Source: a bacterium | Lineage (GTDB): Bacteria > JAJRZV01 | DNA length: 13,451 bases | Direction: 5' to 3' | NCBI GenBank assembly: GCA_024275095.1 | Contig: JAJRZV010000007.1 | Location: forward strand, 1-13,451 | In this document: one piece after another, positions 3,377 to 10,072 of the stretch | Layout: every line of letters begins with the position of its first letter | Numbering within the stretch: the stretch's first letter is position 1 | Translations under genes and position numbers: made by a program | Notes under the pieces: model-generated | The model's input: only the letters and a program-made list of their open reading frames with translations | What the model was told of the DNA's origin: nothing | The model's database searches: none

Positions 3377-3725
3377 TTGGAAAGCAGCACTTGTTGCCCT
3401 TAATGCCTATCTTCACGATTTTTCAGTAGCCCTGGCTTTTACTTCTTCACTGGTTGCCTACTGGTTGACTCGAGAACTGCATCATTTGCAGGGATATTAT
3501 TCAATCCTGCTGAAACTGCGACGACTGATCATTTTTTCATTTGCGGGAATTTTTGTTTTTGGAGCCGTAAGAGTGTACTTTTATCGGACTTACGAGATGC
3601 CTGCTGGTGTTGATGAAAGCGTACTCATCAGTGTTCTTGTCGCCAAGCATATTATTCTGGCATCACTACTCATAGGAGCACTCTATCTTTCGGTGAAATT
3701 CTGGAAGTTGGCGGGTCGGTCTTGA
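3366..3725 (+). CDS. Three-helix membrane protein of unknown function
   Basis: This 119-residue protein has three strong hydrophobic helices at about residues 13-32, 52-72 and 88-110. His17 lies within helix 1 and His95 within helix 3, with a His39-His40 pair just after helix 1. Two histidines in separate helices could coordinate a haem b or a metal, but this is only an inference. I do not recognise the family. It has an AAGGTG ribosome site at 3351-3356, nine bases before the ATG. It overlaps the upstream stop by 11 bases and the downstream TTG start by four, so it is embedded in the cytochrome c maturation operon and its product probably acts in the same membrane. Confidence 0.72.
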   Translation: MGGNWKAALVALNAYLHDFSVALAFTSSLVAYWLTRELHHLQGYYSILLKLRRLIIFSFAGIFVFGAVRVYFYRTYEMPAGVDESVLISVLVAKHIILASLLIGALYLSVKFWKLAGRS

Positions 3726-5176
3726 AGCCGAGGATCCTTTTTGTTACTCCTCCCTATCACTGCGGTGTTGTTGAAGTGGCTGGCAGATGGGTGCCTCTTC
3801 AATTTGTATATCTGGCAGGTGCAGCTCGACGAGCAGGTTGGGAACCGGTAATGTACGATGCCATGAGTGCTTTCACGGGTTGGGATGAAATTCGAGCAAA
3901 GATTAGTGACGTCGATCCCCGTGTGGTCGCCACGTCTGCTATTACTGCAACACTGCCCGATGCTATTGAAGTCTTAAGGATGGCCAAAACAATATTTCCG
4001 GATGTTGTCACTGTTATAGGAGGTGTGCATCCCACCTTTATGGCCGATGAAGTTATGCAAATGGGCGAAGGTTGCATAGATTACGTGATCCGTGGCGAGG
4101 GCGAGGAAACCCTTCAGGAGCTTCTTCAGGCCATTGAGTCAGGAACGACTGTTGATGATATAAAGGGACTTTCCTGGAGAGATAAGCACGGAGAAATTAT
4201 TCATAATACCTCGCGTCCCTTTATCCAAAACCTGGACTCTCTTGCACAGGACTGGAACATCCTGGATTGGAGTCTTTACAAATATTTTGTCATTCCGGGG
4301 TCGCGTTTGGGCGCTGTTAGCTCTTCAAGAGGCTGTTCTATGGAGTGCACCTTCTGTTCCCAGCAAAAGTTCTGGCAGCGTGTATGGCGTGCGAGGGAAC
4401 CGGAGCTCGTTGTGGACGAGGTGGAAATGCTACATCGGGAATTCGGCGTAAATGTTTTTCTGATTACTGACGAGTACCCTACGAGTGAACGTGACAGGTG
4501 GATACGCATTTTAAAGGGACTCATTTCACGCAATTTAAAAGTGTATCTTCTTATAGAGACGCGGGTTGATGACATCATAAGGGACGAAGACATTATGGAG
4601 CTTTACCGTGCCGCGGGTGTTATTCATGTGTATGTAGGAGTGGAAAGCCCCAGTGAGAATGTTCTTGAGGCCATAAAAAAAGACATATCCGTTGAACAGT
4701 CCAAAGAGGCTCTGGAAATCCTGCGCAGGTGGGATTTCATCAGTGAAACGTCTTTTGTGCTGGGTTTTCCCTGGGACACTCCAGAAAGTATAGATGAAGT
4801 TATACGTCTCTCACTTTACTATAATCCCGACTTTGCCCACTTTCTGGCAATTACTCCATGGCCCTATGCGGATTTGTACAGGGAAGTGAAAGATTACATA
4901 GTGGTGCATGATTATCGCAAATACAACCTTATTGATCCTGTAATAAAACCTGAACGCATGAGCCTTCAAGAGGTGGATGCGGCCATAATGGAAGGTTATC
5001 GCAGGTTCTACATTAAAAAAATGGAAGAGGTGTCGAGGTGGCCCCAGGGACTTAAACGGGATTACATGATTCGTTCCATGAAGCTCATTATGAACAGTTC
5101 ATTTCTTCGGAAAAAGTTACCCGTTCTTGGAGAAATTCCTTCTGAAATTCAGGAGATGCTTTCCCGGCTTAGCTAA
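3722..5176 (+). CDS. BchE-like B12-binding-domain radical SAM protein
   Basis: This 484-residue protein has an N-terminal cobalamin-binding-type Rossmann domain (about 1-145, with GGVHPT at 100-105 but without the classical DxHxxG motif). It is followed by a radical SAM barrel with the [4Fe-4S] cysteines Cys205, Cys209 and Cys212 (CSMECTFC) and a GVES motif at 306-309. The C-terminal TPWPYADL segment (378-385) and the KYNLIDPVIKP segment (400-410) recall the anaerobic Mg-protoporphyrin monomethyl ester cyclase BchE. BchE forms ring E of chlorophylls using cobalamin and SAM, but nothing else here suggests phototrophy, so the substrate may be another tetrapyrrole or lipid. The TTG start at 3722 overlaps the previous stop (TTGA). 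It ends 3 bases from the convergent reductase gene. Family assignment is firm; reaction unknown. Confidence 0.88.
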   Translation: MKPRILFVTPPYHCGVVEVAGRWVPLQFVYLAGAARRAGWEPVMYDAMSAFTGWDEIRAKISDVDPRVVATSAITATLPDAIEVLRMAKTIFPDVVTVIGGVHPTFMADEVMQMGEGCIDYVIRGEGEETLQELLQAIESGTTVDDIKGLSWRDKHGEIIHNTSRPFIQNLDSLAQDWNILDWSLYKYFVIPGSRLGAVSSSRGCSMECTFCSQQKFWQRVWRAREPELVVDEVEMLHREFGVNVFLITDEYPTSERDRWIRILKGLISRNLKVYLLIETRVDDIIRDEDIMELYRAAGVIHVYVGVESPSENVLEAIKKDISVEQSKEALEILRRWDFISETSFVLGFPWDTPESIDEVIRLSLYYNPDFAHFLAITPWPYADLYREVKDYIVVHDYRKYNLIDPVIKPERMSLQEVDAAIMEGYRRFYIKKMEEVSRWPQGLKRDYMIRSMKLIMNSSFLRKKLPVLGEIPSEIQEMLSRLS

Positions 5177-5179
5177 AAG

Positions 5180-7498
5180 TTATTTTTTCTTTACCGTGAT
5201 TTTCCACCTGCCATCTGGCCGTTGTTCTTTTTTTAGCACGGGAACTCCATCATTTTGGAGACTTCTGGGAACATTTTCGATGGGCTCTCCATCATCCAGG
5301 ATCACTTCAAGCATCGCACCAGGAGGCAGTTCTTCGAGTTTCAGCTTGGTTTTTACATAGTTGAGCGGACAGGGGGTTCCGCTGAGGTCGAGAAGTTCTG
5401 CAGCCACAGAAGCCTCGCCGGTAGAGGAATTATCCCCGATCAGCTCCACGTCCTTACCGAAGTCAATTTTTACTTCGGGGTCGAGTACATCAAACACGTG
5501 CTGACAGCGTTTGTAAAGGAGTTCCAGGAGTTTTAATACGTTTTCACGCTTTTCCTTCGTCAGATTCTTGTGCAGATTTTTAAAATCCTTAGGCAGCAGG
5601 TGCCGCTGGTAGAGTTCTTTTTCGAATGTTTGCACGGCTTCCGCATCGTCAACAGGATCCGTGCCGAAGAGAATTAAAACGCTTCTCGCACATGCAGCAG
5701 CGGCAGAGATTGCACGCTTTCTAAAGATTTCTTCATCGATGTTAAATATATTTTCCTTGACGGAGTTAATAATTTTTTTAGCATCTCGCAGGTTGACTTC
5801 CATGAGATCAACCATGCTTCCAGCACACTCGCCTGGCCCGATTTCTTCGAGAGAGAATTTTCTATCGATTCCAAAATCGTAGTAGTATTCGGGAGCCTGT
5901 TCAAAAGGAGGGACCTCCAGAAGATCAGACAACATCTCCTCGAAACGGTGAGTACCTACACGTCCGATGTACTCTGAGAAATTTTCGGTGTTCCTGCGTT
6001 CCTTAAAGAAGGTTTCTACCAGCCTTTTGACGGCACGGGGAATGTTCCTGGCAGGAATGCGTAAAAGTGGTTTCGCGGCCGACGGCACATCACCGGATGG
6101 TGTTCCCCCTAAGAGAATCATGTAGTATGGTGCATAATCTCCGTGATGCTTCCGTGCTGCTCCGTAGAGCCCGATCCCTGCAATTTGGTGCTGGCCGCAA
6201 CTGCTGGGACATCCGCTGATGCGAATATCTAATCCGTCGAGGTTGTCGAGTTCCTTGTTAAGTTCCGAAGCAAGTGCACGTGTGTTGGTTATGGCCAGCC
6301 GGCACGAATAAATACCGGGGCATGTCACTGTTTCTGCTTCGACAGTAGTGTCCACAAGGTTAGCTTTTTTCAGTTCAAAAAATAGAGGATAAAGAGCATT
6401 CTTCTCGATCCACGGAATCAGGAAAGATTGTCGCAGCGTTGTTCTCAGGAAACCACCATTAAAGCGCTGAGCGAGTTCTGCAATGACGTCGAGCTCTTCA
6501 CTGGTGAAGATCCCGTAAGGCTTTCTGATTTCCACGGCAAAATAACCTTCCTGTTTCTGAGGAGTGACACGTGCCTTTTCCCATTGCAGAAATTCGTTTT
6601 GATCTTTAAGTTCAATATGCTCGTTTTCCACAGCGCTTGTGCGAGGTTCTTCCTGTATAAAATTTAGCGGGAGGTGCACGCTTGTCTCGATTTTATGATT
6701 TTGAAGCCACTGGGAGACTCTATTGTTAAATTCTTTCTCTCCCCATTTCAGCGCGAGAAATTTCATGCGGGCGCGGGCCCGGTTGCGTCGTTCTCCAAAT
6801 TCGTTGAAGAACGCGAGAACCGACGCGGTAAATTTTGTCACCTCTGCTTCAGGAAGGAATTCCTTAAATATGTGGGCCATGCGTGGATGCGCTCCAAGTC
6901 CTCCTGCAAGGTAGACTCGAAAACCGCGTTTTCCTTCGTGTGTGCACGCTATCAACCCCACATCATTAACCCGTGCGTATGCACAGTCTTTTGAACATCC
7001 GGAAAACGCAATTTTGAACTTTCTGGGTAGATTACCTCCGTATCCGGAGTTCACCAGAAAAGTGGTGGTTCTCCATGAGGCCTCACTTACATCAAATATT
7101 TCGTCGGGACATATTCCCGCAAGATGACATGTCGTGACATTACGTACTGCATTGCCACCTGCTTCAAGGGATGTTACTTCTGCTTCAGCAAGTTCATACA
7201 GCGCAGGCACGACATCAGATATTTTCAACCAGTGGATCTGAATGTCCTGCCTAGTCGTTACATGCGTTATTGACCTCCCGTACCGCCGGGCGACCTGTGA
7301 AATTACGGATAGCTGCTTCGCAGTGAGCCTACCAGCAGGAATTCTTGTGCGGATAAGATAAAATCCAGGTTGACGTTGGGCGTAAACTCCCAGGTTTATA
7401 CGGTAACGTTTAAATTTTTCTCCGTGCAACTTACCACTGGTGAAGGCCTCGACTTCCCTTTTGAATTGCTCCAGCAGTGAACTCAATACGGTGTTCAT
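5180..7498 (-). CDS. Siroheme nitrite/sulfite reductase with C-terminal TusA sulfur-carrier domain
   Basis: This 772-residue cytoplasmic enzyme has the duplicated ferredoxin-like/siroheme fold of assimilatory sulfite and nitrite reductases (residues 30-500). Likely substrate-binding residues are Arg83 (TTRQDIQIHW), Arg119 (VRNVTTC), Lys160 and Lys162 (LPRKFK), matching the basic active-site set of E. coli CysI. The second half has the siroheme-[4Fe-4S] cysteines Cys393, Cys399, Cys430 and Cys434. The first half also keeps a full set: Cys124, Cys130, Cys168 and Cys172. A helical region (about 565-680) follows, then a TusA-like domain (about 700-772) with Cys710 in a CPLN motif instead of CPxP. 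It should reduce sulfite to sulfide, or nitrite to ammonia, probably with ferredoxin, since no flavin domain is seen. Last gene of the minus operon; its ATG overlaps the upstream stop (ATGA). Confidence 0.93.
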   Translation of the reverse strand: MNTVLSSLLEQFKREVEAFTSGKLHGEKFKRYRINLGVYAQRQPGFYLIRTRIPAGRLTAKQLSVISQVARRYGRSITHVTTRQDIQIHWLKISDVVPALYELAEAEVTSLEAGGNAVRNVTTCHLAGICPDEIFDVSEASWRTTTFLVNSGYGGNLPRKFKIAFSGCSKDCAYARVNDVGLIACTHEGKRGFRVYLAGGLGAHPRMAHIFKEFLPEAEVTKFTASVLAFFNEFGERRNRARARMKFLALKWGEKEFNNRVSQWLQNHKIETSVHLPLNFIQEEPRTSAVENEHIELKDQNEFLQWEKARVTPQKQEGYFAVEIRKPYGIFTSEELDVIAELAQRFNGGFLRTTLRQSFLIPWIEKNALYPLFFELKKANLVDTTVEAETVTCPGIYSCRLAITNTRALASELNKELDNLDGLDIRISGCPSSCGQHQIAGIGLYGAARKHHGDYAPYYMILLGGTPSGDVPSAAKPLLRIPARNIPRAVKRLVETFFKERRNTENFSEYIGRVGTHRFEEMLSDLLEVPPFEQAPEYYYDFGIDRKFSLEEIGPGECAGSMVDLMEVNLRDAKKIINSVKENIFNIDEEIFRKRAISAAAACARSVLILFGTDPVDDAEAVQTFEKELYQRHLLPKDFKNLHKNLTKEKRENVLKLLELLYKRCQHVFDVLDPEVKIDFGKDVELIGDNSSTGEASVAAELLDLSGTPCPLNYVKTKLKLEELPPGAMLEVILDDGEPIENVPRSLQNDGVPVLKKEQRPDGRWKITVKKK

Positions 7499-7986
7499 GG
7501 CTTCCTCTCCTTTGACAGGATTTTATCGTTGAAAAAGATGACCTGTATTTTTTCGTGCAGTTCAGAAGGTAGTGATGGTTTGCGCTTTAATAAACGCTGT
7601 AGCCAGCCCTCCTTGCGTTTAACCCAGACAACAGCATCGGGATTTTCTCTTTTTATCAGTCGCGCAAGAAGTTCTTCTTCGTAACCGTTTTCTATGATGA
7701 TACGGATGCGGGCAGGATGGCTGCTCAGCAGGTGTTCAATTTCCGCTGCCCGGTCGTAGGCCTCCTGTCGAAACATTTTGATGATTATGCCCATAAGCTC
7801 TGCTCCCACTTTTTCTCCCACCCATCCCATATTCACGATTTTCTTCTCGGCATATTCTGCTTCTCTCTCATCTATGCATATGGCGATAAGGCATTCTTCA
7901 AAGCCTTCTCCTTTTTGATGTATTACCTGGGCAATGAATTTTGCATCAGCGTTGGTGACTTTGAAAAAAATGAGAAGTTTGCGCAA
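7495..7986 (-). CDS. Unknown 163-residue alpha/beta protein, possibly Usp-like
   Basis: The predicted soluble product alternates strands and helices: a first strand at residues 2-9, another at 32-39, a third at 93-98 followed by a helix, then AVVWV (118-122) and VIFFN (149-153). The last half, with a strand, a helix, a strand and then a basic GWLQRLLKR loop, recalls universal stress proteins, but the usual ATP-binding glycine loop is not evident, so this is only a suggestion. The start is TTG at 7986, supported by a strong ribosome site (GGAGGTGAG, minus strand, about six bases upstream). It lies 6 bases after the transporter stop and overlaps the reductase start by four bases, so it is almost certainly made together with both. 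It may be a regulator or accessory protein of the transporter or reductase. Confidence 0.75.
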   Translation of the reverse strand: MRKLLIFFKVTNADAKFIAQVIHQKGEGFEECLIAICIDEREAEYAEKKIVNMGWVGEKVGAELMGIIIKMFRQEAYDRAAEIEHLLSSHPARIRIIIENGYEEELLARLIKRENPDAVVWVKRKEGWLQRLLKRKPSLPSELHEKIQVIFFNDKILSKERKP

Positions 7987-7992
7987 TGTTTC

Positions 7993-9393
7993 TCACCTCC
8001 AGATAAAAAAGTACGAGGCAATGATAACTGTTATGGTCAATAGGTGCATGAGCAGCCCCACGCGGCCGGTATCTTTAATACTGATGTGGCCGGTAGAAAA
8101 GGCCAGAGCTGTTGCCGGTGTGCCTGCAGGAAGGATAAACGGAAGTCCCGCTGGTAACGCAACGACGAAAACAGCGTGTTCGGGAGGAAGCCCTAATGAT
8201 TCGAAGGCTCCTATAGCCACTGGTAAAATCACAGCTACAGCTGCACTGTTGCTCATCCCTTCGGTCAGTATGAGAGTAACGACCACGAGTATAAGAACTG
8301 TAAATACAGGCCCATGTGCTGTGGGGTTGAGAAGCGCTGACGCGATCCACCGGGCTGCACCCGTGGAATACATGGCACTTCCAAGTGAAATGGCACCGCC
8401 GTACATGAGAAAGACTCCCCAGTTGACAGTGTCTTCAACGTCGACCCATCGCACGATGTTGAATATAAAAAGGCATGCTGCACCGGTTAAACCGATGAGG
8501 GCCAATGCGACCGGTGTATGTGATCTTATCCAGAAAACAATGACCACCACAAATACCAGACCTGCAAGATAAGCTCTTATACCCGCGGGTCTTGCTCGCA
8601 ACTGGATGTCTTTCCCCTCCACTTCGGCCAATCCTTTGCGGAAGAAGAGCCACAGTAATATCTGGCCTCCTGCAATGAGAAAGAGCGAAGGAATAATAGA
8701 GTAGTGAAGCCACTCTACAAAGGCTATTTGTTTGCCGGTGATTTCCTGGAGTATTCCTATGGCGAGGGGGTTGCGTGCACCTCCTAAGAGTGTGGCAATC
8801 CCTCCTGTAATACTTCCCCATGTAAGTGAAAGTATGAGAAGCCTGGCATAAAGCGAACCGCGTCGGAGTTTCAGCTGAGAGATGGTTTCTATAACAACAG
8901 GTAAAAGTATGGCAGCTACCGCATGTTCCGGTATGAGGAACGAAAGGAATGCCGCGGCGTTATAGATAAGCAGGGGTAGCAATCTGGGTGAATGGCCGCC
9001 TGCTCGCAGGAGTCCACGGGCGATGAGTGTCCCTGTACCACTTTCCATGAGGGCACCTGCAAGCAGGAGAGCTGAGAGGAGAAAAAATACAACAGGATTT
9101 GCGAAAGAGTGCAGCAGCACCTGTGCCTCCACAGCCTTACCGCCCCATAAAAGCACTACGGCCATTATTGCGGGGATGACAGGAGGTACGATATTGAGAA
9201 TCCAGGAGAACGTGGTAAAAAGAAATACCAGAATACATTTATATGCTTGCGGGCTCAGCCCGGGTGGAGGGGTTCCTTCTGCCAGTAAGTAAACAACCCA
9301 TCCTAATCCTGTGAAAAATAGCGCATGGCGGTAAAAACGCTGGAGCAGAATCAGGATTAAGGGTCGTGTATCAATCTGGAAGCGCTCTTTCAT
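7993..9393 (-). CDS. DASS/SLC13-family anion transporter (divergent)
   Basis: This 466-residue protein has about a dozen hydrophobic helices in the two-repeat layout of the divalent anion:Na+ symporters (DASS, SLC13). The second repeat keeps SNSAA (381-385, SNT-type motif) and LPAGTPATALAFSTG (421-435). In the first repeat the equivalents are altered: IPEH (154-157) where SNTAT is usual, and LLGGARNPLA (202-211) where GTPPN is usual. Known family members move dicarboxylates, sulfate, phosphate or related anions. Lying in one operon with a sulfite/nitrite reductase, it probably imports sulfate, sulfite, thiosulfate or nitrite; which one cannot be read from the sequence. I chose ATG 9393; an in-frame GTG at 9399 would add two residues. 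Minus strand, 31 bases after the unknown 215-residue gene. Confidence 0.87.
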   Translation of the reverse strand: MKERFQIDTRPLILILLQRFYRHALFFTGLGWVVYLLAEGTPPPGLSPQAYKCILVFLFTTFSWILNIVPPVIPAIMAVVLLWGGKAVEAQVLLHSFANPVVFFLLSALLLAGALMESGTGTLIARGLLRAGGHSPRLLPLLIYNAAAFLSFLIPEHAVAAILLPVVIETISQLKLRRGSLYARLLILSLTWGSITGGIATLLGGARNPLAIGILQEITGKQIAFVEWLHYSIIPSLFLIAGGQILLWLFFRKGLAEVEGKDIQLRARPAGIRAYLAGLVFVVVIVFWIRSHTPVALALIGLTGAACLFIFNIVRWVDVEDTVNWGVFLMYGGAISLGSAMYSTGAARWIASALLNPTAHGPVFTVLILVVVTLILTEGMSNSAAVAVILPVAIGAFESLGLPPEHAVFVVALPAGLPFILPAGTPATALAFSTGHISIKDTGRVGLLMHLLTITVIIASYFFIWR

Positions 9394-9424
9394 AACCACT
9401 CTGATCTGAGTTAACGGTCATTTC

Positions 9425-10072
9425 TTATTCTTCAAATTTTTGAACCACGCGGAGAGATCTCCTCAATTTAAACAAAGTATATTTAAATTTCAGGATAAAA
9501 TCTTTCTTTCTGTCGTGTTTCTCTTTAAAAATGTTTTTAAAAATATCTCCTACAATGCCTCCGTTACCTGCGCAGATGAGGTAGAAGCAATCATTTCTCG
9601 GTGTAATAAGAGGCAGGCCGTTTATTTCTGGTAGCCTGTAGAGTTCTTCTGCATTTTCTATAATGATGCCCACGTTACCCTTAGGAAACACCCGGAGCGC
9701 TCTGTCCAATATTTTGCTGAAACGATGCGAAGAGATAGAAGTGGTATCAACATAAAATAACAGTACGTCTATACCGACAGCATAGGCCCAATCTATCCAT
9801 TCCTGCTGACCCGGAGGAGCACATACAGCGATGACGAAAGGGTTGTATTCTTTAATGATTTCATAAAGAATTTCACGGAAAGCAAACAGGCCTCCGTCAT
9901 TTTCTCGGGGGTTAATGTTGATGAGGAGCGTATATTTTACAGCAGGAGGCTGAACAGGGCCGAGCGTGTGTTTCTCCAGTACTTCGCAGATTTTTTTGTT
10001 AAATTCAATACTTGTGTTTGTGGCGAACGCAAGTCCCGCTGGTAACAGATATTTTGTTAGGTTTCCTTCCAT
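9425..10072 (-). CDS. Unknown 215-residue protein, radical SAM-like barrel fragment without cluster cysteines
   Basis: First gene of the minus operon, with a GGAG ribosome site before ATG 10072 and a promoter at 10096-10124. I do not recognise it with confidence. Residues 46-140 alternate strands and helices, and the stretch from a YAVGIDVLLF strand through HRFSKILDRALRVFPKGNVG (116-135) resembles the middle of radical SAM TIM barrels. The N-terminal part has no CxxxCxxC motif; the only cysteines are at 29, 84, 162 and 167. No transmembrane helix is evident. The C-terminus (185-215) is Lys/Arg-rich and helical. It could be a catalytically dead or shortened relative that binds a partner, or an unrelated alpha/beta protein. 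Its position suggests a link to the downstream transporter and reductase. Confidence 0.65.
   Translation of the reverse strand: MEGNLTKYLLPAGLAFATNTSIEFNKKICEVLEKHTLGPVQPPAVKYTLLININPRENDGGLFAFREILYEIIKEYNPFVIAVCAPPGQQEWIDWAYAVGIDVLLFYVDTTSISSHRFSKILDRALRVFPKGNVGIIIENAEELYRLPEINGLPLITPRNDCFYLICAGNGGIVGDIFKNIFKEKHDRKKDFILKFKYTLFKLRRSLRVVQKFEE

Follow-up and report, generated by a model that had tools for sequence, protein, structure and literature searches.

Why does a single-chain sulfite/nitrite reductase carry a complete set of siroheme-[4Fe-4S] cysteines in each of its two halves, and what could the set in the first half do? The question is raised by a 772-aa protein encoded in the 13 451 nt stretch of bacterial DNA analysed here (the window). 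A first-pass annotation had proposed that this chain could hold two clusters or sirohemes, or represent a state closer to the ancestral duplication. The reading we favour, with a probability of roughly 0.6, is that the predicted protein is a single-chain sulfite reductase of the assimilatory type, whose siroheme-[4Fe-4S] active site is single and canonical and whose first half (N-half) holds a non-catalytic [4Fe-4S] cluster.

Architecture of the reductase

The gene and its two halves are located as follows:

5180..7498, minus strand: two-half sulfite/nitrite reductase gene, 772 aa (ORF, Pfam, AlphaFold2 model, VIA-align)
6629..7393, minus strand: first half, DsrA/Fsr-like, about residues 36-290 (hhalign to the second half and to DsrA; superposition on Fsr)
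5954..6601, minus strand: second half (C-half), about residues 300-515, with the canonical siroheme-[4Fe-4S] ligands (Pfam, alignments)

In the Pfam search, NIR_SIR_ferr and NIR_SIR each matched twice above cut-off, followed by a C-terminal TusA domain. The two stretches of both repeats mark the protein as a two-repeat single-chain siroheme sulfite/nitrite reductase, and its membership of the superfamily is also seen in the CX5CXnCX3C motif of the second half together with the basic substrate residues of the first. It is the sole sulfite/nitrite reductase of its genome. An assembly artefact was ruled out by the open frame without stops and by the presence of the same architecture in many genomes.

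The AlphaFold2 model has a mean pLDDT of 88.7, with a disordered linker at residues 674-697 (pLDDT under 50). By VIA-align, its core matches NirA and plant nitrite reductases with Z 37-39 over about 460 residues (Z 38.9 to Mycobacterium tuberculosis NirA, 1zj8), while residues 24-270 superpose on Fsr (7np8) with Z 21.8 and an rmsd of 2.3 Å over 232 residues.

Two cysteine sets in register

All eight cysteines named in the first-pass annotation, as well as Arg83, Arg119, Lys160 and Lys162, are present at the positions given there, and its span of 6197-7129 is exact, i.e. from the codon of Cys434 to that of Cys124. The ligands and basic residues, all on the minus strand, are:

7127..7129, minus strand: Cys124, N-half ligand 1 (sequence position)
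7109..7111, minus strand: Cys130, N-half ligand 2 (sequence position)
6995..6997, minus strand: Cys168, N-half ligand 3 (sequence position)
6983..6985, minus strand: Cys172, N-half ligand 4, corresponding to the cysteine that bridges to siroheme (position; half-to-half profile alignment)
6320..6322, minus strand: Cys393, Escherichia coli CysI Cys434 (alignment)
6302..6304, minus strand: Cys399, E. coli CysI Cys440 (alignment)
6209..6211, minus strand: Cys430, E. coli CysI Cys479 (alignment)
6197..6199, minus strand: Cys434, E. coli CysI Cys483, bridging (alignment)
7349..7351, minus strand: Arg50, E. coli CysI Arg83 (alignment)
7250..7252, minus strand: Arg83, E. coli CysI Arg117; Thr in DsrA (alignments)
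7142..7144, minus strand: Arg119, E. coli CysI Arg153 (alignment)
7013..7021, minus strand: Lys160 and Lys162, E. coli CysI Lys215 and Lys217 (alignment)

When a family profile of each half, based on 42-47 relatives, was aligned with that of the other by hhalign (probability 99.9, E 3.5e-33, 189 columns), residues 124/393, 130/399, 168/430 and 172/434 fell in the same columns. The chain contains an internal duplication in which each of the four cysteine pairs is in register; this excludes chance cysteines in the N-half. Searched by itself, the N-half also finds the second half of tobacco nitrite reductase, and its cysteines align with those present there.

The contrast with E. coli CysI (1aop) that had been drawn at the outset is borne out by the alignment: CysI matches the window protein in the four C-half cysteines and in the five basic residues listed above, whereas the N-half cysteines fall on Asn160, Leu166, Pro223 and Asp227, and CysI has no C-terminal extension. 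The protein is thus not a single-chain aSir that has lost the N-half cluster motif, a type described in PMC10229431, since the full N-half quartet is kept. The basic residues of the first half, although present, are not unusual but normal in assimilatory enzymes; moreover, Arg83 of the window protein is not the counterpart of E. coli Arg83, which is Arg50.

One canonical active site and a probable second cluster

Judged by alignment, the active site is complete and canonical, formed by the C-half cysteines together with Arg50, Arg83, Arg119, Lys160 and Lys162 of the N-half. A second catalytic site is unlikely and was rejected on two grounds. First, the C-half is without the basic residues that such a site would need: among 21 quartet-bearing members, all of which have the N-half basic residues, the symmetric C-half positions are basic in only 1, 1, 5, 0 and 9 (in the order Arg50, Arg83, Arg119, Lys160, Lys162), and the position symmetric to Arg83, which is Arg356 in the window protein, is acidic in 13. 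Second, the second N-half pair varies, while that of the C-half is always Cx3C. Its spacing is 2, 3 or 4 in 3, 8 and 10 of the 21, respectively, and 4 in 27 and 3 in four of 31 proteins from two further phyla; the window protein has Cx3C. In known enzymes, the bridge to the siroheme is the last cysteine of the second pair. This is also the bridging residue in Fsr (PMC10229431).

The N-half quartet would therefore bind a [4Fe-4S] cluster outside any second active site, most likely without a catalytic siroheme, and two clusters per chain are the likeliest content predicted from these alignments. Of the original proposal of two clusters or sirohemes, the part that stands is a second, homologous and widely conserved ligand set, while two catalytic sirohemes have become less plausible. 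The N-half cluster may contribute to the stability of the fold, or to electron storage or relay.

In DsrAB, DsrA holds a structural site and also supplies substrate residues to the site bound by DsrB (PMC10229431). Since this arrangement parallels the two halves of the window protein, the N-half site can be likened to the DsrA structural site; it would be its counterpart, inherited from the enzyme that arose by the ancestral duplication, with many losses among relatives such as CysI and NirA. The parallel could go further, in that the N-half might hold a full siroheme-[4Fe-4S] pair, structural and non-catalytic as in DsrA, giving two sirohemes and two clusters per chain. The N-half indeed aligns with DsrA (hhalign E 2.9e-16), including the CX5CXnCX3C motif, and the combination of Cx3C with Arg356 in the window protein, where DsrB likewise has an arginine, leaves room for a structural siroheme in this particular N-half. 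However, in the quartet-bearing relatives, the residues at the symmetric C-half positions are for the most part non-basic or acidic, and the Cx2C or Cx4C found in most of them would shift the bridging cysteine, so that we consider a full second pair unlikely.

The window protein is not itself a DsrAB. Although both have a cluster motif in both halves, DsrA and DsrB are two subunits and the window protein is one chain, which scored 42.9 of 392.85 bits with TIGR02064 and 45.5 of 341.5 bits with TIGR02066; an identity as DsrAB was rejected on these grounds. In addition, the DsrB motif is CXnCCX3C as opposed to CX5CXnCX3C in the C-half, DsrA has Thr in place of Arg83, and, unlike in DsrAB, no ferredoxin domain was found in the Pfam search of the window protein. 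Fsr has the CX5CXnCX3C motif and an aSir-type Arg in common with the window protein, but consists of a single repeat fused to an F420H2 oxidase (PMC10229431).

Sulfite or nitrite as substrate

NCBIfam models place the protein between ferredoxin nitrite reductase, NirA and CysI, far under all equivalog cut-offs, i.e. 252.7 of 594 bits for PRK09566, 237.1 of 523 bits for PRK09567 (NirA/ferredoxin nitrite reductase) and 109 of 756.55 bits for TIGR02041 (CysI). It shares the two-half fold and the active-site residues with the ferredoxin nitrite reductases (tobacco Nii3/Nii4, spinach 2akj, M. tuberculosis 1zj8). These lack the GECA arm, the HEPN-fold bundle and the TusA domain, all three of which are present in the window protein, and the plant enzymes have no cysteines at the N-half quartet positions.

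Pathway genes were sought in the genome of the window one family at a time. It encodes ATP sulfurylase (Sat), a PAPS-reductase-family protein and a siroheme-synthesis dehydrogenase, while neither a DsrA over cut-off nor DsrC was found in this genome. The gene for the relative in Thermus oshimai lies next to hemD, cysG, a PAPS reductase gene (cysH), TauE, cobA and sat, and those of two Bacteroidota relatives adjoin cobA and cysG; the neighbours of relatives (MFS transporter, thioredoxin-like, DsbD and flavoprotein genes) show no common pattern. Based on the sulfate-assimilation and siroheme genes of the genome, the absence of DsrA and DsrC from it and the Thermus cluster, assimilatory sulfite reduction is the best functional call. 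The reductase would act on sulfite derived from sulfate via Sat and PAPS/APS reductase, encoded elsewhere in the genome.

Nitrite may nevertheless be the main substrate, considering that its closest matches among solved structures are nitrite reductases. That the protein is mainly a NirA-type nitrite reductase in an incidental sulfur context seems improbable to us: ferredoxin nitrite reductases are its best matches in both family and structure, yet every equivalog cut-off is missed widely (e.g. 252.7 against 594 bits), the chain is fused to TusA, the genome encodes Sat and the PAPS-reductase-family protein, and the Thermus relative lies in a sulfate-assimilation cluster.

Distribution and repeated loss of the N-half quartet

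The phylum of the window is represented by this one genome, and the nearest relatives of the reductase are about 40 % identical. Homologues at E <= 1e-60 were found in 54 of 386 sampled bacterial genomes, and relatives also occur on named MAG contigs of Omnitrophota, Planctomycetota, Deltaproteobacteria, Armatimonadetes, Actinobacteria and one archaeon. The full N-half quartet is present in 21 of 52 distinct aligned proteins and in all 31 proteins fetched from two further phyla, in one of which the reductase family occurs in 71 of 84 genomes. Its retention in these proteins suggests that the quartet is under selection over large distances. The CX5C and CX3C of the C-half, which served as a control for the variation in the N-half, are invariant in every row of the alignment that covers them.

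Incomplete N-half sets take the form CxCC (with D, T, N, A, L or V in place of the second Cys), CSCH or CTCH, SCCH or GCCL, or no cysteine is left. Many relatives keep either three of the cysteines or a mixture of Cys and His (CDCC, CSCH, SCCH); the N-half site can thus decay in steps, and cysteines alone are no proof of a cluster. Several NirA-type relatives (L014, L015, L016, L019, L027, L029, L031 and others) have three of the four N-half cysteines, the second being mostly Asp, Thr or Asn, and a cluster on three Cys and one other ligand is conceivable in these. The fourth cysteine is replaced by His (CSCH, CTCH, SCCH) in L022, L054, L056, L041, L044 and L045. A divergent protein of 508 aa (L028) has the full quartet in both halves but neither the C-terminal arm nor TusA, and scores under all NCBIfam cut-offs.

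Such decay could mean that the N-half cysteines of the window protein are themselves vestigial, or form a redox disulfide, without any cluster. In line with this, partial sets are widespread and all four cysteines are gone in several lineages (SDST, SSNN, PNYN, SSNT, ESSA) with the C-half intact. Against it, all four cysteines are kept in every one of the 31 proteins from two phyla, as well as in several separate lineages whose identity is 30-40 %. A weaker argument is a tendency towards joint loss of Cys124 and Cys172; the well supported branches provide two independent pairs for it, too few for significance. We regard a cluster-free N-half as somewhat less probable still than the structural siroheme pair considered above.

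In a maximum-likelihood tree built without the four cysteine columns, the rows with a full quartet are scattered among members that have lost it. Constraining them to one clade costs 78 log units and a single-clade origin was rejected by the AU test (p = 1.6e-7), with five state changes on the tree; counting state changes does not separate gain from loss. Profile alignments place CX5CXnCX3C at the same position in the C-half and DsrA, and Fsr has the motif at the same place as well (PMC10229431). Since the motif is identical and in the same place in these three, and since the quartet-bearing proteins do not form one clade, the simplest reading of the sequences is that the N-half quartet is an ancestral state that was retained here and lost repeatedly. 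A ligand set in each half is also what one would expect shortly after the ancestral duplication. The suggestion that the protein is closer to this duplication thus applies to the cysteine trait, but not to the position in the tree.

C-terminal arm, helical bundle and TusA domain

Behind the reductase core, the chain continues with three further segments:

5819..5917, minus strand: C-terminal arm, residues 528-560, GPGECAG with Cys558 (codon 5825-5827) (conserved GEC motif)
5480..5821, minus strand: helical bundle of probable HEPN fold, residues 560-673 (VIA-align Z 12.6 to the HEPN entry 2hsb)
5186..5392, minus strand: TusA domain, residues 703-771, Cys710 (codon 5369-5371) (Pfam PF01206, E 8.2e-20)

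The GEC motif occurs in 36 of 54 aligned proteins, where the arm ends in G-x-G-E-C-A and the equivalent of Cys558 is kept in all 36. In six of these, the chain ends within two residues after this cysteine; the T. oshimai protein, likewise, ends in GRGECAV, two residues after Cys. Longer members continue past the arm with the helical bundle and, in 16 of the 36, with a TusA domain. The bundle of the window protein has no Pfam match and resembles several HEPN entries with Z 11-12.6 over 100-117 residues, which is moderate support, given that helical bundles can reach Z of about 13 by chance. Model residues 697-772 match the TusA fold (VIA Z 12.7), and Cys710 lies in GTPCPLN. CPxP is usual at the active-site Cys of TusA; here and in relatives, the motif is CPxN.

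DsrC carries sulfur on the penultimate Cys (Cys111) of a flexible C-terminal arm (PMC3397948). The short reductase members resemble it in having a conserved Cys two residues from the end, but their arm belongs to the reductase chain itself and has no sequence relationship to DsrC. The model of one short member (L022) has a pLDDT of 93 for the last-but-one ten residues and of 60 for the last ten, which include the Cys, a pattern that suits a mobile arm tip and is no proof of its destination. In the long members, a TusA, i.e. a sulfur carrier, is fused to the reductase. A putative built-in relay from siroheme to Cys558 to Cys710 of TusA is therefore an attractive hypothesis by analogy; in this more speculative step, Cys558 would pick up sulfur from the active site and pass it on via Cys710. 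Zero-valent sulfur was reported as a product of assimilatory enzymes in 2026 (PMC13188885). A fuller scheme, in which the siroheme receives its electrons from the N-half cluster and a DsrC-like Cys558 hands zero-valent sulfur to TusA, so that the product would be carrier-bound sulfane sulfur instead of free sulfide, appears doubtful to us, about as much as the structural siroheme pair.

Place in sulfite reductase evolution

According to a published scheme, a duplication and a fusion gave rise to the assimilatory sulfite reductases, which lost one of two siroheme-cluster sites (PMC10229431). The family described here is a candidate for an uncharacterised branch of single-chain sulfite reductases with the second cluster site kept, and its quartet-bearing members may preserve, in extant enzymes, an intermediate stage of this evolution. 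A literature search for a single-chain reductase with two cysteine sets, or for a fusion with TusA, returned nothing specific. With full-set proteins beside relatives missing one, two or all four cysteines, the order of cysteine loss can be tested biochemically. Likewise, the Cys arm and the TusA fusion offer direct access to the question, reopened in 2026 (PMC13188885), of whether sulfide is released by assimilatory enzymes or zero-valent sulfur is passed on.

Gene neighbourhood

Two genes precede the reductase gene in the same direction:

7495..7986, minus strand: 163-aa protein with a weak Usp-like match; 4-base overlap with the start of the reductase gene
7993..9399, minus strand: DASS-family sodium-coupled anion symporter (TIGR00785, 211.5 bits against a cut-off of 198.6)

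Because of the four-base overlap, the 163-aa protein and the reductase are probably co-translated; its Usp match (E 0.12) is below cut-off, with no other family match. Upstream of the symporter lies a gene for a 215-aa protein without a family match (9425-10072). On the other side, a B12-binding radical SAM protein near BchE (428 bits, cut-off 481) is encoded at 3722-5176, directly convergent with the reductase gene, and cytochrome c assembly genes, ResB-like and CcsA-like, are located at 745-2867.
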